This document shows, one piece after another, positions 3,445-39,325 of a stretch of 64,000 nucleotides of DNA; position 1 is the first letter of the stretch; every line of letters starts with the position of its first letter. The stretch spans positions 310,001 through 374,000 of the forward strand of contig NZ_JALPRE010000009.1 in NCBI RefSeq assembly GCF_023195925.1. The letters run 5' to 3'. A program made the position numbers and the translations under genes. Source of the stretch: Aquimarina acroporae (GTDB lineage Bacteria; Bacteroidota; Bacteroidia; Flavobacteriales; Flavobacteriaceae). A model generated the notes under the pieces. The model did no database searches and was not told the origin of the DNA. It was given only the letters and a program-made list of their open reading frames with translations.

Positions 3445-3446
3445 CT

Positions 3447-9045: not shown

Positions 9046-12000
9046 ATGAAAAGAACTATTCTAGTTTTTTCTGTGTTTTTATCTCTTTTAATGATACAAC
9101 AGATAAAGGCACAGGAAAAGACGATTTCGGGAACAGTAACTTCTGCAGGCGACAATTCAATGCCGCTGCCAGGGGTTAATGTTATTGTAAAGGGAACAAC
9201 AACAGGAGCACAAACAGATTTTGATGGCCGTTATACAATTAATGCATCTGTGGGAGATGTTTTAGAGTTTAGTTATGTCGGTCTTTTATCAGTTACAGTA
9301 ACGGTAGGAACATCAAATACTATCGATGTTTCTATGGAGGAAAATTTAGAACAACTTGACGATGTGGTCGTAACAGCCTTGGGAATTGCAAAGAGCCGAA
9401 AATCTCTTACTTATGCGGCTCAAGATATTAATGCCGATGAGCTTAATAGAGTAAAGCAAACCAATCCGGTAAATAGCCTTTCTGGTAAAGTATCGGGTGT
9501 TGTAATCAATCGAAGCTCATCTGGGGCAGGAGGATCTGTAAAAGTAACGCTAAGAGGAAACTCCTCATTAGGGAACAACCAACCGTTATATGTGGTAGAC
9601 GGAGTACCGTTATCAAATCCAACCGGAGGACAACCGCAAAATACTTTTGGAGATATTAACGGAGGTAACAGGGATGGTGGAGATGTTTTGTCTCTTATTA
9701 ATCCCGATGATATAGAATCCTTAACCGTATTAAAAGGAGCATCGGCTTCTGCACTTTATGGTAGTGCCGGTTTAAATGGGGTTATATTAATAACAACTAA
9801 GAAGGGAAGAACAGGAAGCTTTAAGGTAGATGCTTCTTCAAATATATTAGTTGAATCTGCTGCCTATTATATTGATTTAAATGATAGAGCAGAGAAAGAT
9901 ATTGAGGATTTCTTTAATACAGGGGTCACCAATATAAATTCTGTATCCTTATCTGGAGGTAGTGAAAATGCTCAAACATATTTTTCATACTCCAATACTT
10001 TCGCTTCGGGAATTTTACCAACCAATAACTTAAGCCAGCATACTATTAACCTGAGGGAAAATGCAACCTTTTTCGATGGTGTCTTAACCGCAAACGCTAG
10101 CGTGTTAGCAACCACTCAAAGTATTGATAACCGACCTGTTTCTGGTTTGTATTTTAATCCATTGGTAGGAGCTTATAATTTTGATTCTCCCGGAGAGCGA
10201 CTATCTAATTACGAAAATTTTGAAGAATTAGACCCTAACAGAAACATTCAGAGTCAAAGATGGTTTAGAGCAACTTCAGATATCGAACAAAATCCGTATT
10301 GGATATTGAATAGAAATGCAAGTGAAGATGTAAGTAGAAAGTTTTTAGCATCTATGAGTTTGAAATTTAAAGTTAATAATTGGTTTTCTGTTCAAACACG
10401 AGGAACCTACGATCAAACTTTTTTAGGTTTCGAAAAAAAAGTGCACGCTACTACCGAAGCTACGCTTGCACCTCCCAACGGTAGATATATTTTTAATGAA
10501 CAAGATATTAGACAGTTATATGGCGATATTATAGCCACTATAAATAAACAATTTAATAACATCACTTTATCTGCTAATATTGGAACAAGTACAACCAGAA
10601 CTACCTTAGAAGTGCTAAATGCAGATTCTGGAACAAATGGAGGTTTACAGTTTGCAAATGTATTTTCTGTCCAGAATTTTAATGCGAACCCACAAGTATC
10701 TATATTTCAGAATTCTTTAGATAAGCAGGTGAACTCTGTTTTTGCCAGTGCAACTGTTGGTTTTAACGAAAAAGTATTTGTTGATCTTACTGCACGTAAC
10801 GATTGGTCTTCATCATTACCATCAGGTAATAATTCTTATTTCTATCCATCGGTAGGGGTAACTGGTATTTTGACTGAAATGTTTGATATGGGAGACCGTA
10901 TATCCTTTGCAAAAATTAGGGGGTCTTATGCCGAGGTAGGAAATGATCTTCCTGCAAATACTGTATTTCCTGAAAGACAAATTCTTTTTGGAGGAGGATT
11001 GAGCCCACTAGACCCAGTAAGACCATTGGGAGAAGTTCGACCAGAACAACAGCGTTCTTTTGAGATTGGAACAGAATGGAGGTTTTTTGATAATCGTTTT
11101 GGATTCGATTTTGGCTACTATCAAACCAGCACTATCGATCAATATTTTCAGGTTCCGGTTTCTACAGGAACAGGATCTGTAACCGTGGGAGTAAATTCTG
11201 GAGATATTATTAATGAAGGATTTGAAGCTTCAATTTTTATCACTCCAATACAGACAGATAATTTTAAATGGACATCAAATATCAACTTCGCAGCCAATGA
11301 CAATGTGGTAGAAGAAATAAGTAATCCTTCAGATGATGTTCAAATAGATAATCAAGTGATCTCTCCTCCGGGAGTAAATACTTTTGCTTCTTATTTGGTC
11401 GAAGGAGGATCCTATGGAGACATCTATGCGCAGGTGGTAAAACGAGATGCCAATGGTAGACCGGTAGTAGATGCTGGAGCTATTGTTATTAATGATGAAA
11501 ACCCTGATAACACTATTGCAGGCCTTGAGAAAATAGGAAATGCGAATCCAGATTTTACACTAGGATGGAATAACTCATTTAGCTATAAGAATATAAGTCT
11601 TGACTTTTTAATTGATGGGAAGTTTGGTGGAGAAACTATTAGTATGACTGAAGCTATAGTTGAAGGGTTGAGTAACAATACTCAAAGGGAAACTACAAAT
11701 GCTCCAGTTGAGGTAGTAAGTCCTACAGGAACCGTTTCAACATTAACTGCGCAGGAGTATTACGGGTTAGTTGGTGGTAGAAACGGATTTACGGGGGAAT
11801 ATGTTTATAGTGCAACCAATGTAAGATTGGCAGAATTTGCTTTGGGATACAATTTTAAGCTGTCTGAGAATTCTTTCTTTAGAACTATTAAAGCATCACT
11901 TATCGGGAATAATTTGTTCTTTTTCTATAAAGATGCTCCTCATGATCCTAATGTATCCTTAAGTACTGGAAATGCATTGCAAGGAGTAGATGTACTAGGA

Positions 12001-12048
12001 CTGCCTTCAACTAGAAGTTGGGGATTAAACTTTAATTTAACTTTTTAA
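9046..12048 (+). CDS. SusC/RagA-family TonB-dependent outer-membrane transporter
   Basis: This 1000-residue protein starts with a signal peptide (about 1-22, ending IKAQ). A carboxypeptidase-regulatory-like beta domain follows (about 24-105, with the SGTVTSAG and DFDGRYTINA patterns). Next comes the TonB plug (about 107-235, with DDVVVTALG, SLSGKVSGVVINRSSS and LYVVDGVPL), and then a C-terminal beta-barrel ending in the aromatic strand GLNFNLTF. It imports oligosaccharides across the outer membrane with energy from TonB/ExbBD. The adjacent SusD gene starts 10 bp downstream. The position at the head of a chitinase and glucanase gene run makes chito-oligosaccharides the most likely cargo, by inference. 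Confidence 0.95.
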   Translation: MKRTILVFSVFLSLLMIQQIKAQEKTISGTVTSAGDNSMPLPGVNVIVKGTTTGAQTDFDGRYTINASVGDVLEFSYVGLLSVTVTVGTSNTIDVSMEENLEQLDDVVVTALGIAKSRKSLTYAAQDINADELNRVKQTNPVNSLSGKVSGVVINRSSSGAGGSVKVTLRGNSSLGNNQPLYVVDGVPLSNPTGGQPQNTFGDINGGNRDGGDVLSLINPDDIESLTVLKGASASALYGSAGLNGVILITTKKGRTGSFKVDASSNILVESAAYYIDLNDRAEKDIEDFFNTGVTNINSVSLSGGSENAQTYFSYSNTFASGILPTNNLSQHTINLRENATFFDGVLTANASVLATTQSIDNRPVSGLYFNPLVGAYNFDSPGERLSNYENFEELDPNRNIQSQRWFRATSDIEQNPYWILNRNASEDVSRKFLASMSLKFKVNNWFSVQTRGTYDQTFLGFEKKVHATTEATLAPPNGRYIFNEQDIRQLYGDIIATINKQFNNITLSANIGTSTTRTTLEVLNADSGTNGGLQFANVFSVQNFNANPQVSIFQNSLDKQVNSVFASATVGFNEKVFVDLTARNDWSSSLPSGNNSYFYPSVGVTGILTEMFDMGDRISFAKIRGSYAEVGNDLPANTVFPERQILFGGGLSPLDPVRPLGEVRPEQQRSFEIGTEWRFFDNRFGFDFGYYQTSTIDQYFQVPVSTGTGSVTVGVNSGDIINEGFEASIFITPIQTDNFKWTSNINFAANDNVVEEISNPSDDVQIDNQVISPPGVNTFASYLVEGGSYGDIYAQVVKRDANGRPVVDAGAIVINDENPDNTIAGLEKIGNANPDFTLGWNNSFSYKNISLDFLIDGKFGGETISMTEAIVEGLSNNTQRETTNAPVEVVSPTGTVSTLTAQEYYGLVGGRNGFTGEYVYSATNVRLAEFALGYNFKLSENSFFRTIKASLIGNNLFFFYKDAPHDPNVSLSTGNALQGVDVLGLPSTRSWGLNFNLTF

Positions 12049-12058
12049 TAAGCACGAC

Positions 12059-13642
12059 ATGAAAAATATAAATATTATCTGTTTGGGATTCATGCTGCTT
12101 TCTGTCTTTTCTTGTTCTGAAGGACTTGAAGATCTTGACGGAAATCCCAGAAATATTACCGACGAACAATTAGCCGTAGATTTTCAGAATGTAGGGTCTT
12201 TGTATAAGCCCATGTTTGAAAATATTTATCAATATACTCCGCCGTGGTCATACCAGTTGCAGCAAAACCTAAATGCAGATGTGTTTTCAGGATATATGAC
12301 TAACCCAAGGCCATTTGTAGCAGGAGCTAATAATACTACTTACAATCTTGTGAGTGGTTGGAATAACTTCATTTGGAGTGTGCCTTATTCTAATGTAATG
12401 AATAACGCCAAAACCATAGAAAATGAGACTAAAGATGAATTTCCTGAGTTATTCGCGGTGTCTCAAATTCTTAAGGTAACTGCAATGCATAGGGTAGCCG
12501 ATGTATTTGGTCCTATTGTTTATACAAAGTTTGGAGAGTCTGCGACAACAAGTGAGTATGACTCACAAGAAGAAGCATATAATGCATTTTTTACTGACCT
12601 AGAAGAAGCTATTCAGATTTTGTCAGACAATATCGATAGTCCAAGATTTACAGCTTTCGATTTGGCATACGGAGGAAACTATGAGAGCTGGATTAAGTAT
12701 GCCAATTCACTTCGGTTGCGATTGGCGATTCGAATTTCTAAAGTAGCTCCTGCAAAAGCAAAATCTGAAGGAGAAAAATCACTAAGTCACCCAGTAGGTG
12801 TGATTGAAGCGAATGCCGATAGCTTTTTTGTGAATGGAACTCTAGATCACCCTATCAAAACAATTAATAACTCCTGGGGAGATATTAGAATGAACGCTTC
12901 TATGGAATCTATATTGGTCGGCTATGAAGATCCTAGAGCAGAGAGTTATTTTAATATGTCAGAAGTGGTCGAAGGGGCCTTTAAAGGAATCCGCAATGGT
13001 CTTCCTCTATTAACAGGATATGATGATGAACTAGCTCAGAAAGCAGATTATATTACCTTCTCTCTATTGTCTGATGAAGTATTGACCCCTAGTATTCAGT
13101 TAATGACTGCAGCAGAAGTATATTTCTTAAAAGCAGAAGCTGGTTTACGAGGATGGACAGGAGCAGGAGGAGTGCAAGCGAACTATGAACAAGGAATTAC
13201 GGCTTCTTTTCAACAATATAGTTTGCCTGGTGTTTCAGATTATATATCTAATACTACTCGCACTCCTATCGACTATGTAGATCCGGTAACACCTGCAAAT
13301 AACATTGCAGCTTTAAGTGATATCACTATTGCCTGGAATGAGGCAGCTACCAACGAGGAGAAATTAGAGAGAATCATCACTCAAAAATGGATTGCAATGT
13401 TTCCCGAAGGTCAGGAAGCATGGAGCGAGTACCGCCGTACTGGCTATCCTAAAATATTCCCGGTTGTTAGCAATCAAAGTGGTGGAGTTGTAGATACTGA
13501 TTTACAAATTAGAAGAATTCCATTTGTCGATAGCGAATTGCAAACTAATCCTGATGGTGTTGCAAACGCAGTAACCAAATTAGGAGGTCCAGATAATGCG
13601 GGTACCCGTTTGTGGTGGGATACTCCCGGCGGAAATTTTTAA
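12059..13642 (+). CDS. SusD/RagB-family surface glycan-binding lipoprotein
   Basis: This 527-residue lipoprotein has a short signal and lipobox FSC with acylated Cys19. The body is the SusD-like TPR fold, closest to the second SusD group (SusD-like_2): LKVTAMHRVADVFGPIVYTKFGE near 140-165 and the late AAEVYFLKAEAGLRGW and WIAMFPEGQEAWSEYRRTGYP segments are typical. It forms the lid over the SusC barrel and captures oligosaccharides. It is 10 bp behind susC and is followed by a strong hairpin, so susC and susD form a core unit with read-through or a separate promoter for the chitinase behind them. Confidence 0.95.
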   Translation: MKNINIICLGFMLLSVFSCSEGLEDLDGNPRNITDEQLAVDFQNVGSLYKPMFENIYQYTPPWSYQLQQNLNADVFSGYMTNPRPFVAGANNTTYNLVSGWNNFIWSVPYSNVMNNAKTIENETKDEFPELFAVSQILKVTAMHRVADVFGPIVYTKFGESATTSEYDSQEEAYNAFFTDLEEAIQILSDNIDSPRFTAFDLAYGGNYESWIKYANSLRLRLAIRISKVAPAKAKSEGEKSLSHPVGVIEANADSFFVNGTLDHPIKTINNSWGDIRMNASMESILVGYEDPRAESYFNMSEVVEGAFKGIRNGLPLLTGYDDELAQKADYITFSLLSDEVLTPSIQLMTAAEVYFLKAEAGLRGWTGAGGVQANYEQGITASFQQYSLPGVSDYISNTTRTPIDYVDPVTPANNIAALSDITIAWNEAATNEEKLERIITQKWIAMFPEGQEAWSEYRRTGYPKIFPVVSNQSGGVVDTDLQIRRIPFVDSELQTNPDGVANAVTKLGGPDNAGTRLWWDTPGGNF

Positions 13643-13660
13643 GATTAATGTGATTTATAT

Positions 13661-13690
13661 AAGGGACTGGAAGTACGCTTCTGGTCCTTT
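13661..13690 (+). terminator. Hairpin after susD
   Basis: A stem of 13 pairs (including three G-T pairs) closes a TACG tetraloop: AAGGGACTGGAAG / CTTCTGGTCCTTT. It follows the susD stop by 18 bp and has only a short T run. It may act as a partial terminator or as an mRNA-stabilising 3' end that sets susCD above the downstream chitinase. Confidence 0.65.
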
Positions 13691-13766
13691 AATGCTCATT
13701 ATTCGTATTTACTCTAAAGAAATCTATATGATATAAAATTACCTAACACAAATCTCTAATTATATT

Positions 13767-15614
13767 ATGAAACCACTTAAAAACATTGTTTCGTTATTCA
13801 TGCTATTTGCATTATTGTATTCTTGCAGTAATGAAAATTTTGTAAATGATCTTCAGGAAGAAGATATTTCTATTCAAATAAATAATAAGACAACGCTTAC
13901 ACAACCAATTATTTTAGGATATTTTCCTTCATGGTCAGAGAGTTGGACAACAACTGGCCAAGGATCAAAGCTAAGGGATATCCCTAAACATGTTACTCAC
14001 GTTTTTTTGGCTTTTGCAAGACCAAATTTACGATATCAAAAAGGATCTTTAGATATCACTAATACTGGTATACAAACTCCATATGGTGGAGCTACCTTAA
14101 AGGAATCTGTATCCATTTTAAAAGAAAAAGGAATCAAAGTAATTTTATCTGTAGGAGGAGAAACTTACTGGGGTTCAGATGCAGCCTATGATATTAACTA
14201 CCAACAAATCAAAGATCTTGTAGATGATATGGGGTTCGAAGGTATCGATTGGGATTTTGAGCCCAACGGAAGCTTTGCGACCATCGGAGAGCCAATTAAT
14301 GTGCAAAGATTTATAGACTTTTTTAATAATTCGAGAGCCATAATGCCAAAAGGGCAATATTTATTGGCATGTGCTCCAGCAGGTGTAGGTGCATTAGGTG
14401 GTTTAAATAATGATGATCCAGCATCTCCATTTGCGTATGCTAATAGAAATAGTGTCACAGGAGAATCAGATGCTAACCTTTATAATGCTACCTCTCCAAA
14501 TCAAGCAATTAGTTTATATGGTTTTGCAACAACAGGTCATATGATCCCAGTTATGAAAGCTGTAGGGGATAAAATCGATTTAATCGCATATCAAGGGTAT
14601 AACACCGGCGCAGCTAGTAATAGAAAAATAATGTATGATGCGTATAAGCACTATGCAGATCAATATGGTTTTTCTATTGCAGCAGGAACACATTATCCCA
14701 ACGAACCATGGGGACCTTATTATACATATACCTATCAGAATATGGCAGAACTGTCTGGGCATATTGGTGCTAATAATGCGAACAATGATGGTATCATGAT
14801 TTGGCAATTATTGTTAGGAGATGGTTCATCTTCTGCCTATGGATATTTATATGTAGCAAGTCAGGTCTTAGGTGGTGTTTCACAAGCTCAGGCTATATCT
14901 AATGCCGAAAACTACCCAGAGTCACCTTATACCGGAGGAGATGGTGGTGGAGATGGTGGAGGTGATGGTACTGTCTGTAATGCGGCACCGTGGAATGCTA
15001 CAACAGCATATACCGGTGGTCAAGAAGTAGTATACCAAAACCAATTGTATCGCGCAAAATGGTGGACTCAAGGAGACACCCCCTCTTCGAATACTGGTAA
15101 TGGTAAGCCATGGGAATTAGTTCAAGATTGTGGTGATGGCGGAGGAACCGGAGATAATCAATTACCTTCGGTAACGATAACTTCTCCATCCAACAATAAC
15201 AATTTTACTCAAGGGACAACGATTACGATTACTGCAGATGCATCAGATAGCGATGGTACAATAGCTAAGGTAGAATTCTTTGAAGGAAGTAATAAATTAG
15301 GTGAAGATAGTACTAGCCCTTTTAGCTTTTCATGGTCAAATGCAAATACAGGTAGCTACTCTATAGTTGCAGTGGCAACCGATAATTCTGGAGGAACTAA
15401 GACCTCTAATGGGGTAAGTATTACTGTGCAATCTGATGGAGGAGGAAGTGGTTCTTGTAGCGGAGTTGCAAGTTGGGAAGCATACCCAACAATATATAAT
15501 CAAGGAGATAGAGTAGTATACCAGGGAGCACTTTATGAGGCTCAAACAGGGCCAATATGGGTGACTCCAGGAAGTGGAGAACACTGGTGGAAGACTATAG
15601 GTACATGTAATTAA
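13767..15614 (+). CDS. Surface lipoprotein GH18 chitinase with two CBM5/12 modules
   Basis: This 615-residue protein has lipobox YSC (Cys20). The GH18 barrel spans about 45-385, with SVGG at 128-131 and catalytic motif EGIDWDFE. Asp161, Asp163 and proton donor Glu165 are intact, but the first Asp of DxxDxDxE is Glu158. A Gly/Asp linker (GGDGGGDGGGDG) leads to a chitin-binding CBM5/12 (about 408-452, with YRAKWWTQGD), an Ig-like Big module (about 462-552) and a second CBM5/12 (about 558-614, with VYQGALYEA). It hydrolyses beta-1,4 bonds in chitin. Unlike the large chitinases nearby it has no T9SS tail, so lipid anchoring keeps it on the cell, probably beside SusCD. Confidence 0.93.
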   Translation: MKPLKNIVSLFMLFALLYSCSNENFVNDLQEEDISIQINNKTTLTQPIILGYFPSWSESWTTTGQGSKLRDIPKHVTHVFLAFARPNLRYQKGSLDITNTGIQTPYGGATLKESVSILKEKGIKVILSVGGETYWGSDAAYDINYQQIKDLVDDMGFEGIDWDFEPNGSFATIGEPINVQRFIDFFNNSRAIMPKGQYLLACAPAGVGALGGLNNDDPASPFAYANRNSVTGESDANLYNATSPNQAISLYGFATTGHMIPVMKAVGDKIDLIAYQGYNTGAASNRKIMYDAYKHYADQYGFSIAAGTHYPNEPWGPYYTYTYQNMAELSGHIGANNANNDGIMIWQLLLGDGSSSAYGYLYVASQVLGGVSQAQAISNAENYPESPYTGGDGGGDGGGDGTVCNAAPWNATTAYTGGQEVVYQNQLYRAKWWTQGDTPSSNTGNGKPWELVQDCGDGGGTGDNQLPSVTITSPSNNNNFTQGTTITITADASDSDGTIAKVEFFEGSNKLGEDSTSPFSFSWSNANTGSYSIVAVATDNSGGTKTSNGVSITVQSDGGGSGSCSGVASWEAYPTIYNQGDRVVYQGALYEAQTGPIWVTPGSGEHWWKTIGTCN

Positions 15615-15642
15615 GGTAGTTTAAATTAGTTTTTAATTGTGG

Positions 15643-15685
15643 AACCTCTGTAATAGTGTGGCTGCTATTATAGAGGTTTTTGTTT
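15643..15685. terminator. Bidirectional terminator between GH18 lipoprotein and VCBS gene
   Basis: A 14-pair stem AACCTCTGTAATAG / CTATTATAGAGGTT (one G-T pair) at 15643-15678 is followed by TTTTTG on the plus strand and preceded by a short A run for the minus strand. The minus-strand VCBS gene stop codon (15668-15670) lies inside the hairpin. It separates two convergent genes. Confidence 0.8.
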
Positions 15686-18600
15686 AAAATCCCATTTTAA
15701 AAATTTAAGTTCTCCGTTTTTGTTGAAAAGCAAAATATATTTTTCCCCTTGTATATTTATAAATTCCATGGCTTTCGGTTGTAACGATGTTAGTTTATTG
15801 CATAGAAAGGTAGATGAGAACAGGTTGTTTTTCTGTTTTTTGTCGCTAAACGAGAAGTACCCCTTATTACTATCATACCGAATGGTTTCTACTTCAGCTT
15901 CATACAATGAACCGATACCAAAAATGTCTAAATGACCATCTAAATTAAAATCTTCAATTAAAAAATCAGTTGTTGGACCAAATTGTGCTTCAATAGGTAA
16001 TGCTATGATATCAAAATTTCCATTTCCATTATTTTTTAAAAGTGAAGTTGTAAAATAGGTTGAAGTGTAGTGCAGTGCGTTTTCTAGATTTTGTTTTCCG
16101 TAGATATCGTTCAATGATGCAGAAGCAAATGAATTATAGGTTTTAAATTTATGCGATAGCCGAGGGACTTGTTGTGAAGAGCATTCTTTTCCTCTCACTG
16201 GTAAAAGTAATCCTTCTTTAGAGGATTTACTTAATACAATGTCCATACTTCCGTTACTATCAAAATCGGCAGCATAAATGTGTAAAGGTTTGGTGATTGA
16301 GGGTTTAAATTTATTATTATCCCCAAGGTTTCCTACTACATAATCGATATCCCCATCTTGATCAATATCTGAAGGGGCTATGGTATTAAACCAACCAGAT
16401 AATTTATCTGTAGAGGTGTTTTTTTTAATTGAAAATTTACCATTGGTATTGTCAAAAATAAGTATTGGTGACCACTCTCCAACTATAAATAGATCTTGAT
16501 CTCCATCATTATCATAATCTGAAAAAATGGCATCGTTAACAACTTTTGTGCTCTTAAGGTCTTTAGCTAAAGATGAGGTTTGATCTACAAATTTTCCATT
16601 TTCATTTTGTAGTATATATGAGGAATATGAAGATGGATATTTACCGGGTATAACACCACTACCAATGAATATATCTAGATCACCATCGTTGTCGATATCT
16701 GCAAAGGCAACAGTACTTGTAACAGACCTTTTAATTGGTAAAGCGTTTTCTTTATGGATAAAGTTTCCTAAACCATCATTTTCATATAATCTGTCTCGAA
16801 GAGTATCACTTGCTTCTGAATCTTCATAGCTTCCGGAGGCAACAAACAAATCTAGATCTCCATCATTATCATAATCAAAAAATAGGGACTTTCGATCTTC
16901 AAAATCTCTATCATTTTTAAAAACTTGAGTATTAGAGAGATCAAAAGTGCCTTTGTCGTTTTGAATATATAAAGCAGGTACTGCGCCTTTTGCATTGCCA
17001 ACAAAAAAATCATCTTTACCATCATTGTTTACATCTGCCACTGCAATAGGAATCCCTTTTTCACTTTGTTTTTGAGGGAGTAATAGTTGTAAAGCATAAT
17101 CGTCAAAAAGTTGTTCTTCATGTTTATAATGCACCCCAAATTCATTACTATTATAAACGGTAATATTTTCTGGAGATTTGGTTATAGGAGAATTGGAATG
17201 GGTATGATCCTCTTTATTAATGTGTAGTTTTTTATTTGCCTTTATATTGCTAAGATGTGTCGACTTTCCATCGGGCCAATAAACCATTATACTATCAACT
17301 TGGTTTGCATCTCCTAAACCAAAGTGAAGCGCTTTTGTTACAGAAGATTGAAACCCTCTGCAGGAGTACAATTTTTTTATTTGTTTTTGATTTTGGTAAT
17401 ATAAAAATACAGAAGTTCCTATCGTTGTTCCTTCTTTTTTAGAACTATTCAGTGAAATCGTTAGAAAATTATTGGTCTGGTTATTTTTATAAATAGTTGC
17501 AATATCATCCTGATTATTAATAATTATGTCTAAATCTCCATCATTATCAAGATCTGAATAGGCTGCGCCATTAGAATTTATTTTTTGATCAAATCCCCAT
17601 TCTTCTGAAACAGTTTTAAAAGTAGCATCACGATTATTTAGAAACATTTTATTGGGTAGTTTGGTTGCGGGCATCATTTGTATCGCTTGCTGTAATGTCA
17701 CTTTTTTACGATTGATGATATTTGACTTCATCCGATTTCTGAAATCTTGGTTAGACAGATCATGTTTTATACCATTGGTAACAAATAGGTCATTAAATCC
17801 GTCGTTATTGAAATCAGCAATTAGAGGAGCCCAACTCCAGTCAGTTTTGGCAATACCAGATAACTGTGCTATTTCACTATAGGTACCTTTCCCTAAATTT
17901 ATTTGCAGCATGTTCGACATATATTGATGATGATACCCCTTTTCAACAAGAAAATTGAAGTTATCAGTACTCATAGTTGCCATATTTTCTTTGCTTCTTT
18001 GATGATCCTCTGAGAGCATGTCTAACACGATAAGATCAGGCTTTAAATCGTTGTTAATATCGGCATAATCAGAGCCCATACTGTTAGCAGAGATATGATC
18101 AAAAGTTTCGAGGATTTTGTTCGTAAACGTATTGTTTTTGTTGTTGATATATAAAAAATCAGGCTCCAGAAAGTCATTAGCTACGTATATATCTGGCCAG
18201 CCATCTTCATTAAAATCTCCAATCGATGCACTTAAACCCCATGCTTTGTTTAATATCCCGGATTCTGGAGTAATGTCTTTAAAAGTACCATTGTCATTTA
18301 CAAAAAGCTGATCACTACTTTCTAAACTAAAGTCATTTTGAATTTTTGGATCAATTATGACATTGTTATTAAAATCTGTGCGATGATTTACCAGATAAAT
18401 ATCTACATCACCATCCTTGTCAAAATCTAAATAATAGGCTTGTGTAGAGAAAGCTTCAGAATCGAGCCCAAACTGACGAGCTTGTTCTAGAAAAGTCCCA
18501 TCTTTTTGGTTTATGTAGAGTTTGTTTTTTCGTTTTTTAGGTTCTTTTAGTTCACCAGATTTGCAAACATAGATATCTAGCCATCCGTCACCATTTATAT

Positions 18601-21261: not shown

Positions 21262-21270
21262 TTATACTGA

Positions 21271-23319: not shown

Positions 23320-23498
23320 GATCTGATACTTTATTACCTTTTTTCTACCCTTTGATTAAGTTTTTGATGTATATGCTATTAGTAATAAAAATAAAGTCGT
23401 TTAGCTATCAATTTACACCTTCCGTATAAAAAATTACGCATTAGCCAGGCTTGTTAATATTTTTATAAATACTTAATACAAACACAAATCTTTAACTC

Positions 23499-29036: not shown

Positions 29037-29051
29037 GCATTTACAAATAAT

Positions 29052-29090
29052 TACCCGATAAGACCTTAATATCTTATCGGGTATTTTTTT
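29052..29090 (+). terminator. Rho-independent terminator after giant chitinase
   Basis: A 12-pair stem TACCCGATAAGA / TCTTATCGGGTA with loop CCTTAATA is followed directly by seven T. It is the clearest intrinsic terminator in the window. It lies between the three-GH18 gene and the GH5-GH18 gene, so the second needs its own promoter or read-through. Confidence 0.93.
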
Positions 29091-29130
29091 ACCTCTTTTT
29101 CGAGGATCATTCTAACTTAAAACCTAACTC

Positions 29131-32100: not shown

Positions 32101-32763
32101 GGGTCAATTACAGCTTTGGATGATCAATTTTATGGTATGGGGAATTCAGATTTTTATGTGTCCTTGGTAGATATGTTACTTAAAGGTTTTCCTATTACCA
32201 GAGATCAGAATAAGTTTTTTCCAGCATTACGACCAGATCAAATCCTTATTGGCGTACCAGCTACAGTTAACGCAGGTAATGGGCATACAGGTGCACAAGG
32301 AGTGATTACAGCATTAGATTATTTAATTAAAGGAGAATCATTTGGTGGCCAATATAATCTTGCTCAAACCTATCCGGGTTTAAGGGGGGTAATGAGTTGG
32401 TCGATTAATTGGGATGCATTTGAAAATAAAAACTTTTCAAATGAGGTAAGAGACTATCTTGATGGGCTTGATGATAAAAGTTCTCCAGCCAATTCAGTAA
32501 AAATAATAGATGAGGTTACTCTTGCTTTGTTTCCTAATCCGGTTACAAAATATCTACATATCATTCAGAAAACACCTATAACCGATTTTGAAGTTATCAT
32601 ATATAATATCCATGGGAGTCAGGTGTACAAAGAAATGGGTTTAAAAACAGAAAAATCAACCAAATCTATTACTCTGGATTTGGAGCGGTTAGAACAAGGA
32701 ATGTATTTCTATACTACAAGGGTAAACGGCAAGGAATACAAAGGAAAGTTGATTAAGGAATAG
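29131..32763 (+). CDS. T9SS-secreted GH5-CBM6-GH18 chimera
   Basis: This 1210-residue protein has a signal peptide to about residue 29 (TLAQ). It carries a GH5 barrel (about 38-335, acid/base Glu169 in NEP, nucleophile Glu263 in VTEFGS, cellulase-like GH5_2 pattern), a CBM6 (about 358-500), Big (508-600), CBM5/12-like (605-668), Big (672-765), GH18 (776-1105, DGMDIDFEG with Asp894, Asp896, Glu898) and a T9SS tail (1127-1210, LFPNPVTK). The Big-CBM-Big-GH18 part closely resembles the last third of the preceding giant chitinase. GH5 would cut a beta-glucan (or possibly chitosan) while GH18 cuts chitin, which fits a mixed-polymer wall. GH16 follows 28 bp downstream. Confidence 0.93.
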   Translation: MKIQNTLAKYVVLIPFVFSILFSSTTLAQNTPVAQNGQLKVCGTQLCNQYNQPIQLRGMSTHGIQWYGWGDCLTESSLDALAYDWEADILRISLYVQEGGYETDPTGFTNQVTRLIDEATERGMYALVDWHQLTPGDPNANLENAKRFFTDIANLHKNNNNIIYDVCNEPNGTGVNWNRIKTYADQIIPVIRGIDNDAVVLVGTQGWATFGVSGEGNLQDVINNPLQFENVMYTFHFYAKSHQDAYLTTLDQASSQLPVFVTEFGSQEFTGDGPNDFVMTQRFIDLMREKKISWTSWNYSDDTRSGAAWQPGTCSGGPWNINRLKEAGSWIRDKIKFPADNFPGGGTGDTQSPYLGTPATIPGIIEAENYDLGGSTIAYNDLTSANQGNSYRTDEVDIEPCSEGGYNVGWISDGEWLEYTVNVQEARNYTFEARVAAITEGRQFHLEVNNQDVSGALVVPNTGGWQIWQTVSANITLNAGEQVIRVVMDSNDFNLHRMTFKNETTSDNIPPSVTLTAPQQGASYTEGQMIAISANASDTDGSVDLVSFFVDGNKIGEDTSAPYEITWVSTSGNHSISATAIDNNNISATSETISISVNSDSGGTGCSEPQYEENGGYQAGSIVQNNGSTYECKPYPFSGWCNGAAWAYAPGEGTYWQDAWVLIGECDGGNPPDGNESPSVVITQPINGQSFSNGSTITITTSASDTDGTITKVEFLSNGVKIGEDTVAPYSFNWGNVSNGNYTLSALATDDDNATTTSSPITISVGSVTPPPTTDLPARILNGYWHNFQNGSGLIKLRDVSPNWDVINVSFAVSKVSPTDGEIEFKLDPEFGTINYDVSEFKSDIKFLQSQGKKVIISIGGAEGQVQLNTTSARDKFISSMISIIEEYGFDGMDIDFEGQSLSFNLGDTDFENPTTPVIVNTIDAVRDVCNHFGNDFILTMAPETFFVQLGYSFYGGISAGADRRAGAYLPLIHALRDKLTFLQVQYYNSGSITALDDQFYGMGNSDFYVSLVDMLLKGFPITRDQNKFFPALRPDQILIGVPATVNAGNGHTGAQGVITALDYLIKGESFGGQYNLAQTYPGLRGVMSWSINWDAFENKNFSNEVRDYLDGLDDKSSPANSVKIIDEVTLALFPNPVTKYLHIIQKTPITDFEVIIYNIHGSQVYKEMGLKTEKSTKSITLDLERLEQGMYFYTTRVNGKEYKGKLIKE

Positions 32764-32791
32764 TGGTAATAACTTTTAAAACCCAACGATT

Positions 32792-34489
32792 ATGAAAATA
32801 ATTAAAATACAAATTCTGCTATTTTTTCTAATTAGTATTTGCAGTCATTTAACAATGGCTCAGAACTGGACTTTGGTCTGGCAGGATGAATTTACGAATG
32901 GAATTAGTCCCGATTGGGTGTTCGAAACTGGCAACGGAAATTCAGGATGGGGTAATAACGAACTGCAGTATTACCGAAGAGAGAATGCTACGGTAGAAAA
33001 TGGTCATTTGGTTATTACAGCTAGAAGAGAGAGTATAGGTGGGTATAATTACACATCATCAAGAATGAAAACCCAGGGAAAGAAATCCTGGAAATATGGT
33101 AAGGTAGAAGCTCGAATTTCGGTTCCTGCATTTCTTGGATCATGGCCAGCATTTTGGATGTTAGGTGATAACATTTCAACTATTGGTTGGCCTGCATGTG
33201 GAGAAATAGATATTATGGAGCATGTGAATACTGAAGCACAAACGCACGGTACCATTCATTGGCAGGATCATAACAATGCATATGCAAGTTATACCGGATC
33301 AACATCAGTGAACTCTGTTACCAATTTTCATACATATACCATAGAATGGGATGAATTGGCAATTAAATGGTTTGTAGATGGAAATCTGTATCATGAAGCT
33401 AGCATTGAAAACGGAGTAAATGGCACCTCTGAATTTCATAATAACTTTTTCATTCTTCTCAATATGGCTATAGGAGGAAACTGGCCCGGTTTCAATATCG
33501 ATAATACCGCATTTCCTGCACGTATGTTAGTGGATTATGTTCGCATTTATCAAAAAACTGGAACTTCTTCAGGACCAGTAAGTTTATTTCAGCATTGCGA
33601 TTTTGACGGGTATTCTGTAGCGCTACAGGAAGGGAGTTATACGATGAGTCAATTACAATCTTTAGGGCTTGTAGATAACGATATTTCTTCTTTAAAAGTA
33701 CAAGAAGATTTTCAAATCAGGTTATATGAGCATGATAATTTTACTGGAGCTTCAATAGTGAAAACTAGTGATGATACTTGTTTGGTAAATGATGGGTTTA
33801 ACGATATTATGAGTTCTGCTATTGTGTCTGGGGTACAATCTTCATGGTTAACACAGATTGAAGCAGAAGACTATATTGTTCAATCAGGAACGCAAACCGA
33901 AGCCTGCTCTGAAGGCGGACTTAATGTCGGTTGGATAGATACCAACGATTGGTTGGTATGGAATGTAAACATACCTAATGCAGGGAGTTATTTAATCGAA
34001 TACCGTGTTGCAAGTCCAAATAATGGAGGCGTACTTCAGCTTGAAAAAGCCGGTGGCATCCCAGTCTATGGTTCATTAACCATTCCCAATACCGGAGGAT
34101 GGCAAAACTGGACTTCGATATCACATGCAGTTAATTTAGATGGAGGGGCACAAGAAATTGCAATCAAAGCACCTGCCGGAGGCTGGAATATTAACTGGCT
34201 AAAAATTAGCAGTACCTCAAACGGGATAAAATCTATGATAAGGGAGACGGTTTCCAAGAGCGATGATCTTATTGTTTTTCCAGTTCCTGCCAAAGATGTT
34301 TTAACCATACAAGGAACCAGCCTCAAATCTTCTTTAGGAATATATTCTATCGATGGAAAACTTATTCGTGAGACAGATACAAAGGGGAAAGATGGAGCAA
34401 CGATTTTAGATGTACAAGAACTAAAATCTGGATTATATGTTATTAAAGATTTTAAGACTGGTAAAACTACCCGTTTTTCCAAAGAATAA
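32792..34489 (+). CDS. T9SS-secreted GH16 beta-1,3-glucanase (laminarinase)
   Basis: This 565-residue protein has a signal peptide ending TMAQ (about 24). The GH16 jelly roll spans about 25-255, with the laminarinase motif GEIDIMEHV: nucleophile Glu138, Asp140, acid/base Glu143, and a typical WPAFWML before it. Next are a beta-gamma-crystallin-like module (about 262-350, with LFQHCDFDGYSV and a later SSLKV), a CBM6 (about 352-473, IEAEDY to NINWLKI) and a T9SS tail (about 490-565, VFPVPAKD to RFSKE). It would cut internal beta-1,3-glucan bonds. Co-transcription with the GH5-GH18 gene (28 bp) and GH64 gene (13 bp) is likely. Confidence 0.94.
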   Translation: MKIIKIQILLFFLISICSHLTMAQNWTLVWQDEFTNGISPDWVFETGNGNSGWGNNELQYYRRENATVENGHLVITARRESIGGYNYTSSRMKTQGKKSWKYGKVEARISVPAFLGSWPAFWMLGDNISTIGWPACGEIDIMEHVNTEAQTHGTIHWQDHNNAYASYTGSTSVNSVTNFHTYTIEWDELAIKWFVDGNLYHEASIENGVNGTSEFHNNFFILLNMAIGGNWPGFNIDNTAFPARMLVDYVRIYQKTGTSSGPVSLFQHCDFDGYSVALQEGSYTMSQLQSLGLVDNDISSLKVQEDFQIRLYEHDNFTGASIVKTSDDTCLVNDGFNDIMSSAIVSGVQSSWLTQIEAEDYIVQSGTQTEACSEGGLNVGWIDTNDWLVWNVNIPNAGSYLIEYRVASPNNGGVLQLEKAGGIPVYGSLTIPNTGGWQNWTSISHAVNLDGGAQEIAIKAPAGGWNINWLKISSTSNGIKSMIRETVSKSDDLIVFPVPAKDVLTIQGTSLKSSLGIYSIDGKLIRETDTKGKDGATILDVQELKSGLYVIKDFKTGKTTRFSKE

Positions 34490-34502
34490 ATAAAAAGCAA
34501 AA

Positions 34503-36659
34503 ATGAAGACTAACACAAACTCAATATATAAAAGGTATATTAAATATTCTATTGTCATATTCATGGTGATGTGCCAATACGGCTTAGTTTCACAAACATT
34601 ACCTTATGAAGTAGAAAATAATTCAGATTTTCCCGACGATCAAGTGTATATAGCTATTGTAGGGATTACAGACGGACATGTTTGGGTGGATCCGGTAACT
34701 GGTCAGGTAAATCAAATGAGTGTTTCAGATAATACTGTTCCAGGTCCTGTGATTGGTGGAAATCAAGGTCCTGGTAATAACGCACTGTATGCCAACTGTT
34801 TTAGAAAACTTAGTGATATTCCTAATAAGACAATTAATATTCCTAAGATAGCAGGTTGTAGAATGATGCTTTCTTTCGGAAGTCAATTGTATTTGTACTT
34901 CTTTGGCCACTCTGGTGATCCAAGTGGTTACGCAGCACCTAACTTGTCTAATCCAACTGATCCTAATCAAGGGATCAAATATGAACTTATAGAGTTAACC
35001 TTTAATGATTTTGGACTTTGGTGTAATACAACACGAGTAGATTCATATCAATACCCTATGGGACTTGAAGTTTGGGGAGGTAATAATTTTTACAAAAGAG
35101 TAGGAGAACTGAAAACACATCAGGATATCTTATCGGAATGGCAATCTGCGGCACCTTCAGAATTTCAAAGTTTAGTAGATGTATCTGAAGGAATCATACA
35201 TTTTCCAACTAAGACTACCACCTTTCCTACCAATTTTTTTCAGTCTTATATAGATGCTATATGGAGTAAGTACAGAACCGATGAATTGGTATTTAATTCG
35301 GGTCAAGCTGGAGTATGGCGTGGAAGAGTGAACGGGAATGAATTTGTGTTTACCAGAGATGGTGATGGGCAAATAGCCAGAATACCGGGTAAACCTACAA
35401 CACTTGAAGCTATGGAAGGAAGTGGGGTATTGGCCTCTGGTGATAGATGGGATTTGGTAGTTCAAGCACAATTTGTGGCTGCCATCACAAGACATGCAAT
35501 AGATCTTAATGTGCCTTCGGGAGTGTATCAGGATTTTGGAGATACTTCAAAATATTATCAGACATGGCCTTATAATTGGTACTCCAAGTTTTTTCATAGA
35601 TCAGATATTAGTCAAGACAGTCAGACATACACTTTTGCATATGATGATGTATTTGATCAGTCGGCTACAGTTCACACTCCAAACCCCACAAATATAAAAA
35701 TTACGATTGGTGGTTTTTTTGGATCTACATCACCCGATTTAGGAGTGGTAACACTTTTTCAACATTGTAATTATAGTGGATCTTCTGTTTCGCTTTCCGA
35801 AGGGAGTTATACACTTGGTCAACTTCAGGAAAAAGGAATTACAAACGATGATATTTCTTCAATAAGGGTACAAAACGGATACGAAGTAACGCTGTATCAA
35901 GATGACAACTTTACGGGACGTTCTTTGATTAAAACCGCAGATGATACTTGTCTGGTTGATGACAATTTTAATGATGAAATAAGTTCTTTAGGGATTTCTA
36001 AAGTAAGCTCATCTCAGTCTATTATGATTGAAGCAGAAGATTTTGTAGCAGAGTCAGGTGTACAAACTGAGCCTTGTTCTGAAGGAGGTCTAAATGTAGG
36101 TTATATAGATGCTGATGATTGGCTAGTTTGGGATGTAGATATTCCAACAGGAGGAAGTTACTTGGTAGAATATAGAGTGGCCAGCCCAAATATAGGAGGT
36201 ACGCTTCAACTGGAAAAAGGAGGAGGAGCCCTGGTTTATGGAAATATGACTGTACCCAATACCGGAGGATGGCAAAATTGGAGTACTATTCAACATACTG
36301 TAAATCTGGAGTCTGGAGTACAACAAATAGCAATTAAAGCCCTTGTTGGTGGCTGGAATATCAACTGGTTAAAAATTAGTGCTACTTCAAATAGTATAAA
36401 AGCTAGTAAAAACGATGTAAGTATTAGTAATGAAGGTTTTATAGCATTTCCTATACCTACAACAAAGGTTTTAAATGTAATCGGTTTATCACCTCAATCT
36501 CATATCGGAATTTATAATATGAATGGAAATATTATTCAGGAAACCGAAACAAAAGTAAGAGACGGTAGAACAATATTAGATGTGCAACATCTAAAACCTG
36601 GATTATATATAATAAAAGATTTCAAAACAAATAAAACCATACGTTTTGTAAAGCAATAA
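34503..36659 (+). CDS. T9SS-secreted GH64 beta-1,3-glucanase
   Basis: This 718-residue protein has a signal region to about residue 32 (LVSQ). The GH64 catalytic domain (about 33-405) has YIAIVG near the N-terminus. The segment LIELTFNDFGLWCNTTRVD places Glu164 and Asp180 sixteen residues apart, as in the Glu154/Asp170 catalytic pair recalled for the Streptomyces laminaripentaose-producing enzyme. A beta-gamma-crystallin module (about 416-505), CBM6 (about 507-630) and T9SS tail (about 640-718) follow, closely paralleling the GH16 neighbour. GH64 enzymes cut long beta-1,3-glucan chains into pentasaccharides, complementing GH16. A strong hairpin follows the gene. Confidence 0.9.
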   Translation: MKTNTNSIYKRYIKYSIVIFMVMCQYGLVSQTLPYEVENNSDFPDDQVYIAIVGITDGHVWVDPVTGQVNQMSVSDNTVPGPVIGGNQGPGNNALYANCFRKLSDIPNKTINIPKIAGCRMMLSFGSQLYLYFFGHSGDPSGYAAPNLSNPTDPNQGIKYELIELTFNDFGLWCNTTRVDSYQYPMGLEVWGGNNFYKRVGELKTHQDILSEWQSAAPSEFQSLVDVSEGIIHFPTKTTTFPTNFFQSYIDAIWSKYRTDELVFNSGQAGVWRGRVNGNEFVFTRDGDGQIARIPGKPTTLEAMEGSGVLASGDRWDLVVQAQFVAAITRHAIDLNVPSGVYQDFGDTSKYYQTWPYNWYSKFFHRSDISQDSQTYTFAYDDVFDQSATVHTPNPTNIKITIGGFFGSTSPDLGVVTLFQHCNYSGSSVSLSEGSYTLGQLQEKGITNDDISSIRVQNGYEVTLYQDDNFTGRSLIKTADDTCLVDDNFNDEISSLGISKVSSSQSIMIEAEDFVAESGVQTEPCSEGGLNVGYIDADDWLVWDVDIPTGGSYLVEYRVASPNIGGTLQLEKGGGALVYGNMTVPNTGGWQNWSTIQHTVNLESGVQQIAIKALVGGWNINWLKISATSNSIKASKNDVSISNEGFIAFPIPTTKVLNVIGLSPQSHIGIYNMNGNIIQETETKVRDGRTILDVQHLKPGLYIIKDFKTNKTIRFVKQ

Positions 36660-36698
36660 AAATTACTGCTGTAGACTTTACTTCAGAATTAATACATG

Positions 36699-36741
36699 CC
36701 TAGGGTGTATAGAATTACACCTTAGGTTTGATTTCGTTTTT
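36699..36741 (+). terminator. Terminator after GH64 gene
   Basis: An 11-pair stem CCTAGGGTGTA / TACACCTTAGG at 36699-36726 is followed by a T-rich tail (TTTGATTTCGTTTTT). It ends the GH5-GH18, GH16, GH64 unit. Confidence 0.82.
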
Positions 36742-36800
36742 AAGATTTCCTATCCTTAATAACCCCTACTCATTATGTCTAATCTAAAATTTATGAAGTC

Positions 36801-38093
36801 ATGAAAAGAATCAGTTTTTTCTTGTTTCTATTGTTCCTTATGAGTCTTTCTCAATATGTGTTTTCACATGGCACTGTAATTTGGCCTCCAAGTCGAATTT
36901 ATAATTGTTATACCAATCCCTCTACAGATGTTTGTCAGCCTTGCGGCAATGCAATTTATAATTGGATGGGTGTTTTACAACCAGATACCAATTTTGGGAG
37001 ACATCAAGATTATGTTCCAGATGGTCAAATTGCTAGTGGAGGTAATGGTAGTGGGATTGATTTTAGCTGTCTTGATGCTTTAACTACTGCTTGGCCTGCT
37101 ACAAGAGTTAATCATGGATACATCGATGTAAAATGGGAAAACACAGCCCCTCATAAAACACAATATTATAAGGTGTATATTACTCCTCTAAATTGGGATC
37201 CCACAAAACCCTTACTTTGGAATGAACTGCTCGAGATTGGTCATGTTGGTCAAAGCCCAGCTGCATCTTTCACGACCATTAGATCTTTTATTCCAGATTC
37301 ATATGTAGGTAAAAGAGCTGCTCTGGTTAGTGTTTGGCAGAGAGATTATAACGAAAGTCATGAAGCATTTTACGCTGTAAGTGATATACTGGTTGATGGC
37401 CAGGGTAGTTGTAATACGGGGGATACCGTAGGAATTACTTTTACCAACACTACAAATTGTGATCTGCAGTATTTTCAGAATGATATTGTACAAGGTTCAG
37501 CAAGCGCGGGAGACACTTATACTACAGAAGCCATAGTAGGTAGTGAGTGGCAAGCCAAGGATACCTCAGGAACTACAATTGATAATTTTACAGTGATTTG
37601 TGAACAGACGAACTATACTTCAACAGGGAATTGTACAGGAGGTGATCATGGTTGCAATGGTATACCAACTTGGTCTTCTTCCTATATCTATGTGGGTGGA
37701 GACACTGTAACCTATAATGGAGTAGAATATCAAGCAAAATGGTGGACCAAAGGAGACAATCCCGAAGAGAATTCTGGTCAATGGGATGTTTGGAAGAACA
37801 TTGGTGACTGTATTAATACTAGCTCAAAAGAATCACTTAAAATCACAAGTATATTAGGTTCAAGAGGAAGAATTTCTACTATACATTTCCAAGTAGATGT
37901 TACAAGGAAATTGACTATGACCATTCGTAATTTGTCAAATCAAGTAATGTTGACAGTGTTTGAGAATGAACCTAAATTATCTGGTAAACATAAACATTCC
38001 TTTGATTCGAAAAGTTTACCTTCAGGAATTTATATATGCGTTTTGGAAGGTTATAATGGAGGCTTTACATCGCAGAAAATTATTATTAAATAA
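36801..38093 (+). CDS. AA10 lytic polysaccharide monooxygenase with CBM5/12 and T9SS tail
   Basis: In this 430-residue protein, signal cleavage after residue 22 (YVFS) exposes His23 as the mature N-terminus, needed for the copper histidine brace. The second brace residue is His118 in TAPHKTQYY. The AA10 domain spans about 23-200. A module at about 201-277 (FTNTTNCDLQYF to GSEWQAKDTSG) resembles VHL-beta-like domains and is not a usual LPMO partner. A CBM5/12 (about 285-335, YQAKWWTKGD) and a T9SS tail (about 342-430, ending KIIIK) complete it. It oxidatively breaks crystalline chitin and helps the GH18 enzymes. It is a single transcription unit between two terminators. Confidence 0.93.
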   Translation: MKRISFFLFLLFLMSLSQYVFSHGTVIWPPSRIYNCYTNPSTDVCQPCGNAIYNWMGVLQPDTNFGRHQDYVPDGQIASGGNGSGIDFSCLDALTTAWPATRVNHGYIDVKWENTAPHKTQYYKVYITPLNWDPTKPLLWNELLEIGHVGQSPAASFTTIRSFIPDSYVGKRAALVSVWQRDYNESHEAFYAVSDILVDGQGSCNTGDTVGITFTNTTNCDLQYFQNDIVQGSASAGDTYTTEAIVGSEWQAKDTSGTTIDNFTVICEQTNYTSTGNCTGGDHGCNGIPTWSSSYIYVGGDTVTYNGVEYQAKWWTKGDNPEENSGQWDVWKNIGDCINTSSKESLKITSILGSRGRISTIHFQVDVTRKLTMTIRNLSNQVMLTVFENEPKLSGKHKHSFDSKSLPSGIYICVLEGYNGGFTSQKIIIK

Positions 38094-38140
38094 GAAATGA
38101 TCTGGACTTAGTTGTTCAAAAAAAACCGAATACTAAAAGA

Positions 38141-38194
38141 ATGCCTGCAAATTCTAGATAATGTCGCAACCATAGGTTTGCAGGTATTTATTTT
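38141..38194 (+). terminator. Terminator after LPMO gene
   Basis: An 11-pair stem ATGCCTGCAAA / TTTGCAGGTAT at 38141-38187 (one G-T pair) encloses a loop of about 25 nt and is followed by TTATTTTAT. Confidence 0.72.
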
Positions 38195-38276
38195 ATAGTT
38201 ATAAACAGTAAGTACTTTTTATAAAGTGCCAACCTAATTCTATAAACCAAACACAAACTCAAACGTAACTACAGTC

Positions 38277-39296
38277 ATGAAAAAGACAATCACACAGTCA
38301 TTACTCATGGGGCTAATGATAGCCGCATGTACCAATGAAAAATTTGATGATGTAATCGCTACAGATACATTAAAAAATGATACAGTAGAAATGGCGTATC
38401 CTGAAGAAACAGGTAAAGTCACCGAAATGTATCATGCTGGGGAAAAACTTGCTATTGAAGAAATTAATGGAGAATATATCTTTGAAGGAGATATTATTTT
38501 CACAAAAGACATGTTATTAAAAACAGCTGAAAAGGTTGTTTTTGAACCGGGAGAAGCCTCATCTACCAAAAGTGTAGGTAGAACTGGAGGTCGCTGGCCA
38601 AATAATACGGTATATTATACCATAGATAGCGGTCTGCCTAAACAATATAGGGTTACCGATGCAATTGCCCACTGGGAAGCTAATACTGCTTTAAGATTTG
38701 TACAACGAACAAATCAAAACAATTACATTCGATTTAGAAAAGGATCTGGATGTTCTTCTAGTGTAGGTATGATAGGGGGGCGTCAAAATATTAATCTAGC
38801 AGATGGGTGTTCAACTGGAAGCACTATTCATGAAATTGGCCATGCGGTTGGATTGTGGCATGAGCAAAGCCGAGCAGATCGCGAGAACTGGATTACTATA
38901 CAATGGCAAAATATACAATCGGGCAAAGAGCATAATTTTCAAACGTACGTGCAAAGAGGACGAGACGGAGACGAATATACCAATAGTCTCGATTTTGGAT
39001 CTATAATGATGTATAGTTCGAAAGCTTTTTCTAAAAACGGACAACGTACGATTACCAGAAAAGACGGAAGCGGATATAGTACTCAGCGTAATGGGTTATC
39101 CTCTAGCGACCTAGAAGGGATTAATAAAATGTATCCTGCCAATGGTGGTGGTGAAGAATATGAAAACGGGAATTATTACACTATCCATGGGGTACGCGTA
39201 TATCGTTGGAATAACCAATGGTGGTATTACGATAGTAGTCAGAGCCGCTGGAGGCGTGTAGAATTGAGAGGAACAACTTGGTACTACATTAGTTAA
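38277..39296 (+). CDS. Astacin-like (M12A) zinc metalloprotease lipoprotein
   Basis: This 339-residue protein has lipobox AAC (Cys18), a propeptide-like region to about 100 and an astacin catalytic domain (about 104-288). The site HEIGHAVGLWHEQSR gives ligands His185, His189 and His195 and catalytic Glu186. The Met-turn is SIMMYSS. After a GGGEEYENG linker, the last 45 residues are rich in Trp, Tyr and Arg, with a repeated WNNQWWYYD / RWRRV / TWYYIS pattern that may bind a surface or ligand. It would digest proteins outside the cell, which fits the protein that coats chitin or fungal walls. It lies between terminators and is a single-gene unit. Confidence 0.92.
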   Translation: MKKTITQSLLMGLMIAACTNEKFDDVIATDTLKNDTVEMAYPEETGKVTEMYHAGEKLAIEEINGEYIFEGDIIFTKDMLLKTAEKVVFEPGEASSTKSVGRTGGRWPNNTVYYTIDSGLPKQYRVTDAIAHWEANTALRFVQRTNQNNYIRFRKGSGCSSSVGMIGGRQNINLADGCSTGSTIHEIGHAVGLWHEQSRADRENWITIQWQNIQSGKEHNFQTYVQRGRDGDEYTNSLDFGSIMMYSSKAFSKNGQRTITRKDGSGYSTQRNGLSSSDLEGINKMYPANGGGEEYENGNYYTIHGVRVYRWNNQWWYYDSSQSRWRRVELRGTTWYYIS

Positions 39297-39325
39297 GTAA
39301 ACTATAAGCAATGTTTTTTATAGAT

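Follow-up and report, generated by a model that had tools for sequence, protein, structure and literature searches.

A 64,000-nucleotide stretch of the 5.18 Mb genome of Aquimarina acroporae (contig NZ_JALPRE010000009.1, positions 310,001 to 374,000; hereafter the window) was analyzed. The genes between positions 9046 and 39296 probably form a chitin utilisation locus of Aquimarina into which a beta-1,3-glucanase cassette has been inserted. The cassette would expose chitin in composite walls, the fungal type being the best match. SusC and SusD genes lie next to each other in the company of glycan-active enzymes and a regulator, the combination by which polysaccharide utilisation loci are recognised in Bacteroidota. 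Families, catalytic signatures, architecture, synteny and recurrence were read directly from the sequence.

Gene content and chitin core of the locus

Features were assigned with Pfam unless another source is given, and lie on the plus strand unless stated. A SusC-type TonB-linked transporter (9046..12048; NCBIfam TIGR04056, 581 bits) is followed by a SusD-type lipoprotein (12059..13642), a glycoside hydrolase family 18 (GH18) lipoprotein with a carbohydrate-binding module (CBM5/12; 13767..15614), a NagB-PIG-L protein resembling glucosamine-6-phosphate deaminase (19294..21261; NCBIfam PRK02122, 1046 bits), a GH20 hexosaminidase (21271..23319) and a triple-GH18 protein of 1845 aa with CBM5/12, Ig domains and a type IX secretion system (T9SS) tail (23499..29036). 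Further downstream lie a GH5-CBM6-Ig-CBM5-like-Ig-GH18 protein with a T9SS tail (29131..32763), whose GH5 is read below as a putative chitosanase, a GH16-crystallin-CBM6 protein of endo-beta-1,3-glucanase type (32792..34489) and a GH64-crystallin-CBM6 protein of beta-1,3-glucanase type (34503..36659), both with T9SS tails and typed by their solved relatives. An AA10 protein with CBM5/12 and a T9SS tail scoring under the cut-offs (36801..38093) and an astacin-family lipoprotein (38277..39296) complete the set. Divergent from SusC on the minus strand, overlapping genes encode a LytTR response regulator and a histidine kinase (7036..8807), a pair that adjoins SusC in most of the relatives' loci.

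All genes named in the initial annotation are intact open reading frames with agreeing coordinates, and its families were recovered by Pfam (SusD, GH20, GH5, GH16, GH64, AA10, astacin) or NCBIfam (SusC). It did not mention the NagB-PIG-L gene, the minus-strand FG-GAP/UnbV gene or the crystallin-CBM6 tails. Its five GH18 catalytic domains were likewise found, out of seven in the whole genome by six-frame search: 23499-29036 encodes three of them, 29131-32763 one, and 13767-15614 a fifth, divergent one. The divergent domain was missing from the single-protein Pfam scan and exceeded the cut-off only in the six-frame genome search (35.8 bits). Catalytic motifs were read in the sequence and checked by regular expression across relatives. 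The GH18 signature DxxDxDxE is present. In the lipoprotein its first D is replaced by E, a substitution seen in 20 of 21 GH18a-type proteins checked, the pattern not being found in the last one (L014). The signatures of GH16 (GEIDIME), GH5 (NEP and TEFG), GH20 (GGDE) and astacin (HEIGHAVGLWHE) are also present, and AA10 has His at its predicted mature N-terminus. In GH64, which matched its profile over the full length (1-370 of 370, 243.8 bits), Glu and Asp stand 16 residues apart, which we take to be the spacing of the LPHase catalytic pair. The nearest solved relatives of the AA10 domain are cellulose-binding by name at 82.7 bits and chitin-binding by name at 80.2 bits. An identity of the astacin as LegP was not assigned, the NCBIfam score of 238.2 being under the cut-off of 300.

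Gene content and SusD place the core among chitin utilisation loci of the Flavobacterium johnsoniae type, here in an Aquimarina version. The nearest solved relative of the window SusD is AqSusD (8j0p, 8jxz). PDB 8j0p is deposited as "Chitin binding SusD-like protein / AqSusD", and its alignment with the window SusD scores 1067.9 bits and runs from end to end; a search of titles and abstract openings, with most subscription journals outside its reach, listed no paper on AqSusD. The second-best match was 5j90 (533 bits), which is F. johnsoniae CusDI and alignable to the window SusD (PMC7426924). As far as the accessible text of that paper describes the chitin utilisation locus (ChiUL) of F. johnsoniae, both loci combine a two-component system, SusCD, a multi-GH18 T9SS chitinase, a GH18 lipoprotein, GH20 and a glucosamine-6-phosphate deaminase. 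ChiUL has two SusCD pairs, whereas one was found among the window reading frames scanned, and its ChiA has two GH18 domains where the large protein of the window has three. ChiUL includes an inner-membrane transporter; the window has an SSF symporter (5084-7024, minus strand) behind the regulator, a possible counterpart. In the same portion of text ChiUL comprises four enzymes, without a glucanase, GH5, AA10 or protease, all of which the window carries (PMC7426924).

SusD orthologs (E up to 1e-60) were detected in 27 of the 66 genus genomes searched, at 28 places. Annotation by phmmer with the window domains covered the surroundings of 27 SusD places and likewise those of the GH5 and GH64 places; the second place in G021 was left out, some stretches stop at contig ends, and eight named loci duplicating already sampled genomes were excluded from counts. 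Genomes of the comparison set are designated G### (G000 being the window's own genome) and DNA stretches from them L###. A decaying copy of the chitin locus was observed in G012 (L096-L097), with SusC, SusD, NagB and the large GH18 gene split into several frames.

The GH16-GH64 pair within the genus

By its solved relatives and its distribution, the glucan-specific addition to the chitin core appears to be the GH16-GH64 pair. The closest solved relative of GH16 is LamCAT (6jh5, 498 bits) and that of GH64 is 5h4e (207 bits), while the CBM6 of GH64 resembles 1uxz (cellulase B) and 5fui (GH16 endo-1,3-beta-glucanase). The crystallin-CBM6-T9SS tails of the two proteins are identical at 184 of 303 residues; the catalytic domains are not common to the two, and match at 60 of 232 in a forced global alignment.

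GH64 was found in 16 of the 66 genus genomes. Among the 27 SusD-bearing genomes, 19 lack any GH64, four (G003, G007, G023, G057) carry it elsewhere and four (G000, G065, G004, G005) have GH16-GH64 in the SusD locus. The pair also lies near a triple-GH18 gene in L002 (Aquimarina) and L007 (Flavivirga), and in L007 GH16 and GH64 flank a gene for a crystallin-CBM6 protein whose similarity to M12B (reprolysin-like) is weak and under the Pfam cut-off. In G003, G007 and L012 the pair occurs without GH18 in the sampled stretch, and the L009 contig is too short to judge. Constraining the chitin-linked copies to a single clade gave a tree that was rejected for GH64 (without G020, 6 rows against 10; approximately unbiased test, p-AU 0.0004) and weakly rejected for GH16 (7 rows against 6; p-AU 0.029), values that are not strict, the groups having been named after the first trees were seen. 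The cassette may have joined once and then undergone moves or transfer.

Recurrence of GH64 with chitinases beyond the genus

With a cut-off of E up to 1e-30 outside the genus, GH64 is rare, occurring in 8 of 397 family genomes and 12 of 395 phylum genomes, the window's own genome and two others being in both sets. Of 32 GH64-bearing genomes in all, 25 were tested by the best GH64 place of each; four in the genus (G013, G033, G057, G060) and three outside it (G243, G259, G416) were left out as divergent or weak. No GH18-like match was present in the sampled stretches of six of these seven, and G060 was not sampled. GH18 lay within 20 kb of GH64 in 14 of the 25 genomes, compared with 0.51 expected (10 of 13 outside the genus, 4 of 12 inside). 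A single genus (g128) accounts for nine of the 13 genomes from outside, and the events are therefore not independent. The three misses outside the genus are genomes with one GH18 or none, and G051, scored as a miss, has a second, weak GH64 place at most 1 kb from GH18.

In G208, G539 and G734, GH64 is accompanied by GH16, by GH18 and by an M12B-like protein, all with these tails; the GH64 clusters of G539 and G734 also border on a SusCD-NagB-GH20 set. GH64 and GH16 are joined in one protein in G361, next to a double-GH18 protein. Crystallin-CBM6 peptidases were found in L007, G023 and other genera. Two further proteins of GH64 clusters (L033:8001-9980 and L123:14190-16061) bear the crystallin-CBM6-T9SS tail behind an N-terminal domain without a Pfam match, 56% identical between the two. 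These domains carry SELDFE and SEMDIIE, resembling the GH16 ExDxxE motif, and perhaps represent an unrecognised GH16-like enzyme.

GH5 and astacin

The initial annotation had counted GH5 and the protease as evidence for a fungal or oomycete-type wall target, a use that the relatives speak against. Eight loci that lack the GH16-GH64 pair carry astacin (G057, G003, G052, G027, G010, G011, G028, G022), and GH5 is likewise found in loci without glucanases. Given these glucanase-free loci and the contexts of GH5, both genes are most likely part of a chitin/chitosan programme and do not count as evidence of a beta-glucan target.

A protein with the same CBM6 occupies the GH5 slot in 16 loci, with GH5 in 13 and GH8 in three (G050, G010, L002), never both in one sampled stretch. 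Among solved relatives of the GH8, chitosanase 1v5c comes first with 350 bits, compared with 125 bits for cellulase CelA. Where a second catalytic domain is fused to the slot protein it is always a chitinase, GH18 in six, GH19 in six and none in four, with Pfam run on five of the fused proteins. A G023 version of this GH5 bears two CBM5 modules and adjoins a double-GH18 protein. Outside chitin loci, GH5 relatives of 61-65% identity occur in G008, G064, G016 and G023; Pfam was run on these relatives except for that of G016 and, of the two in G023, the smaller. Those in G008 and G064 (62-65% identity) adjoin NagB-PIG-L, and the G064 protein is also fused to a polysaccharide deacetylase domain. 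Because of the GH8 exchange, the chitinase fusion, and the deacetylase fusion and NagB neighbours of relatives, the window GH5 is read from genomic context as most likely a chitosanase, perhaps also an endoglucanase. GH5_2 contains mainly endoglucanases and also reported chitosanases, one from Streptomyces griseus, and its catalytic Glu motifs, in the accessible text of that report, are common to the window GH5 (PMC3526467); the window GH5 may itself be of this subfamily, its listed matches including the GH5_2 representative 2a3h.

Two other roles were considered for GH5. A beta-1,3-glucanase was rejected, the closest solved relatives being endoglucanases and none of the 43 matches listed being named a beta-1,3-glucanase. 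A plain cellulase is less likely, in view of the 61-65% relatives beside NagB-PIG-L or fused to a deacetylase, but a more distant relative considered below does occur in a cellulase setting. A GH5-deacetylase fusion (L136:9949-14322) adjoins a NagB-PIG-L gene (L136:14611-16536) in what looks like a chitosan-use cluster, and L135, a related stretch, has a hybrid two-component regulator of 1345 aa ahead of GH5.

Transcriptional organisation

The gaps between the GH5-GH18 and GH16 genes and between GH16 and GH64 are 28 and 13 bases, respectively. Terminator-like hairpins lie after the triple-GH18 gene (29052..29083, with a T run), after GH64 (36698..36727) and after astacin (39322..39354), all on the plus strand. 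The first recurs in 14 of 19 loci, compared with 1.9% in randomised controls, and is missing from G019, G045, G049, G022 and L007. A DNA alignment of this hairpin region matched poorly at its ends and was set aside. The terminator scan found four single terminators against 7.2 expected, so that only the recurrence after the triple-GH18 gene counts. The division into four transcription-defined blocks proposed in the initial annotation was only roughly right, in that this hairpin separates the triple-GH18 gene from the GH5-GH16-GH64 run.

A promoter matrix trained on triple-GH18 promoters of other genomes gave candidate elements on the plus strand upstream of the triple-GH18 gene (23393..23419, orthologous to the training sites) and upstream of SusC (8960..8986). 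The latter is the second-best of the window on both strands, and its score of 14.9 is borderline against maxima of up to 15.6 in 20 randomised windows. A candidate at NagB (19201) ranked seventh, at chance level. A sigma-70-type scan found 41 promoters against 47.5 expected, which is no evidence alone. The box TANNTTTG, presumably the Flavobacterium-type promoter box, was rejected as proof of the blocks, with 69 matches against 90 expected. Co-induction of the glucanases with the chitin genes is plausible.

A probable composite-wall locus with precedent

A composite locus for chitin and glucan is already known from the fungal cell wall utilisation locus (FCWUL) of the soil bacterium Chitinophaga pinensis, described in 2023, in which chitinases, a GH16-CBM6 beta-1,3-glucanase, SusCD and a putative crystallin peptidase stand in one locus (PMC10449523); the Aquimarina version is a variant with the GH16-GH64 pair. 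The following comparison is confined to the accessible text of that report. Common to both are SusCD, a multi-GH18 T9SS chitinase with CBM5, GH16 with CBM6, a CBM6-bearing chitinase and a peptidase, and in both one locus attacks chitin and beta-1,3-glucan, as predicted for the window from its sequence alone (PMC10449523). The FCWUL is regulated by an extracytoplasmic function (ECF) sigma/anti-sigma pair in contrast to the LytTR two-component system of the window, its SusD binds glucan whereas the window SusD is of chitin-binding type by sequence, and its peptidase is a putative crystallin lysyl endopeptidase whereas the window astacin has no crystallin domain (PMC10449523). That text mentions no GH64, GH5 or lytic polysaccharide monooxygenase; the window adds GH64, GH5, AA10, GH20 and NagB (PMC10449523). 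The literature search described above listed nothing on this Aquimarina locus or on a GH16-GH64 pair in chitin loci.

Target of the locus

From the enzyme families and their relatives we infer the following substrates and unveiling role. Secreted multi-GH18 chitinases, the GH18 lipoprotein and AA10 would cut chitin, and the resulting chito-oligosaccharides would be imported by SusCD and processed by GH20 and NagB. The GH18-fused GH5 would cut deacetylated stretches as a chitosanase, perhaps also as an endoglucanase, and astacin would strip matrix protein. GH16 and GH64, each with a crystallin-CBM6 tail, would cut the beta-1,3-glucan surrounding chitin, and their main job would be to lay chitin open in composite walls. 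Of the possible targets, which include cuticle, oomycete and diatom material, a composite wall of fungal type is the most likely. The glucan fragments probably go to another locus. A genome search found no GH3 beta-glucosidase on the window's contig, other beta-glucosidase families not being searched. Elsewhere in the genome GH16 occurs at three more places and GH3 at seven, among which GH16 (C23:558943) and GH3 (C23:559777) are neighbours. A search for GH17 in the genome gave no match, and was uninformative given that its control likewise had none.

Several observations weigh against a chitin locus with a glucanase cassette. The glucanase run sits behind a terminator-like hairpin, and must therefore depend on upstream read-through or on its own promoter, and the matrix scan of the window found no candidate element before the GH5-GH16-GH64 run. 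In G051, G024, G049 and G006 GH64 lies in a SusC/GH16 cluster without GH18. The nearest solved relatives of the window GH5 are endoglucanases, the closest being T. fusca endoglucanase E-5, and the distant GH5 of G028 (44%) is fused to GH9 and CBM3, which is a cellulase setting. In the FCWUL, according to the accessible text, SusD binds beta-1,3-glucan though most of the enzymes are chitinases (PMC10449523); a chitin-type SusD is therefore no proof of the inducer of the locus.

The initial annotation had proposed whole fungal or oomycete walls as the target. What stands of this proposal is that GH64, often with GH16, recurs with chitinases far above chance across genera, the same logic being present in the FCWUL (PMC10449523, as far as its accessible text goes). 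It loses GH5 and astacin as evidence, and the chitin-type SusD and the absence from the contig of GH3, the one beta-glucosidase family searched, do not agree with it. A locus dedicated to whole walls, into which GH5, GH16, GH64 and protease were recruited together and from which glucan and chitin fragments are both harvested, is accordingly unlikely. The recurrence in other genera of GH64, GH16, GH18 and metallopeptidase with common tails, and the C. pinensis locus, would fit it. Oomycete walls also contain cellulose, which a GH5 endoglucanase could cut. The occurrence of GH5 and astacin without the pair, and of GH5 in chitosan-type contexts, speaks against joint recruitment. A target in the chitin-protein cuticle of crustaceans, with the glucanases directed at fungal or other growth on the cuticle or merely incidental, is improbable to a marginally greater degree. 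To our knowledge the cuticle has no beta-1,3-glucan, yet five Aquimarina loci retain the GH16-GH64 pair within the operon, and other genera have it next to chitinases. In favour, the chitin core has AA10, a chitosanase-like GH5 and astacin. Aquimarina spp. are reported from crustacean shell disease lesions in the accessible text of PMC10946978.

Diatom or other algal material with chitin fibres and storage beta-1,3-glucan is a very improbable target. The genus is marine, four of its genomes have GH64 in laminarin-type SusC/GH16 clusters, and diatoms contain both chitin and chrysolaminarin. However, a chitosanase-like GH5, AA10 and astacin would be unexpected for a soluble storage glucan, and a second genus of the family (g128) often carries the cassette as well.

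Neighbouring genes

The FG-GAP/UnbV protein (15668..19000, minus strand) occupies the same position in seven loci (G000, G065, G057, G052, G050, G027, G010) and perhaps functions in surface glycan binding. Immediately behind the LytTR regulator, a minus-strand run (1153-7024) contains the SSF symporter together with M1-like peptidase, DUF2867, arginase-like and CN_hydrolase genes. The window has another pair of histidine kinase and LytTR regulator at 56737-58604.

Implications

The contents of this mixed locus can be sorted: the GH16-GH64 pair marks a composite-wall target, and GH5 and astacin do not. More tentatively, and with the odds rather against it, a mobile wall-unveiling cassette of GH16, GH64, GH18, an M12B-like peptidase and a domain with a GH16-like motif may be spreading in Bacteroidota; its common crystallin-CBM6-T9SS tail would target one beta-1,3-glucan matrix, it would have joined chitin loci more than once, and a locus sensing and importing only chitin would thereby strip glucan that it does not harvest. 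The exchange of GH5 and GH8 before a chitinase domain predicts chitosanase activity in both. With near relatives that hold the chitin core with or without glucanases, a chitin-sensing locus whose glucanases serve solely for chitin exposure becomes testable.

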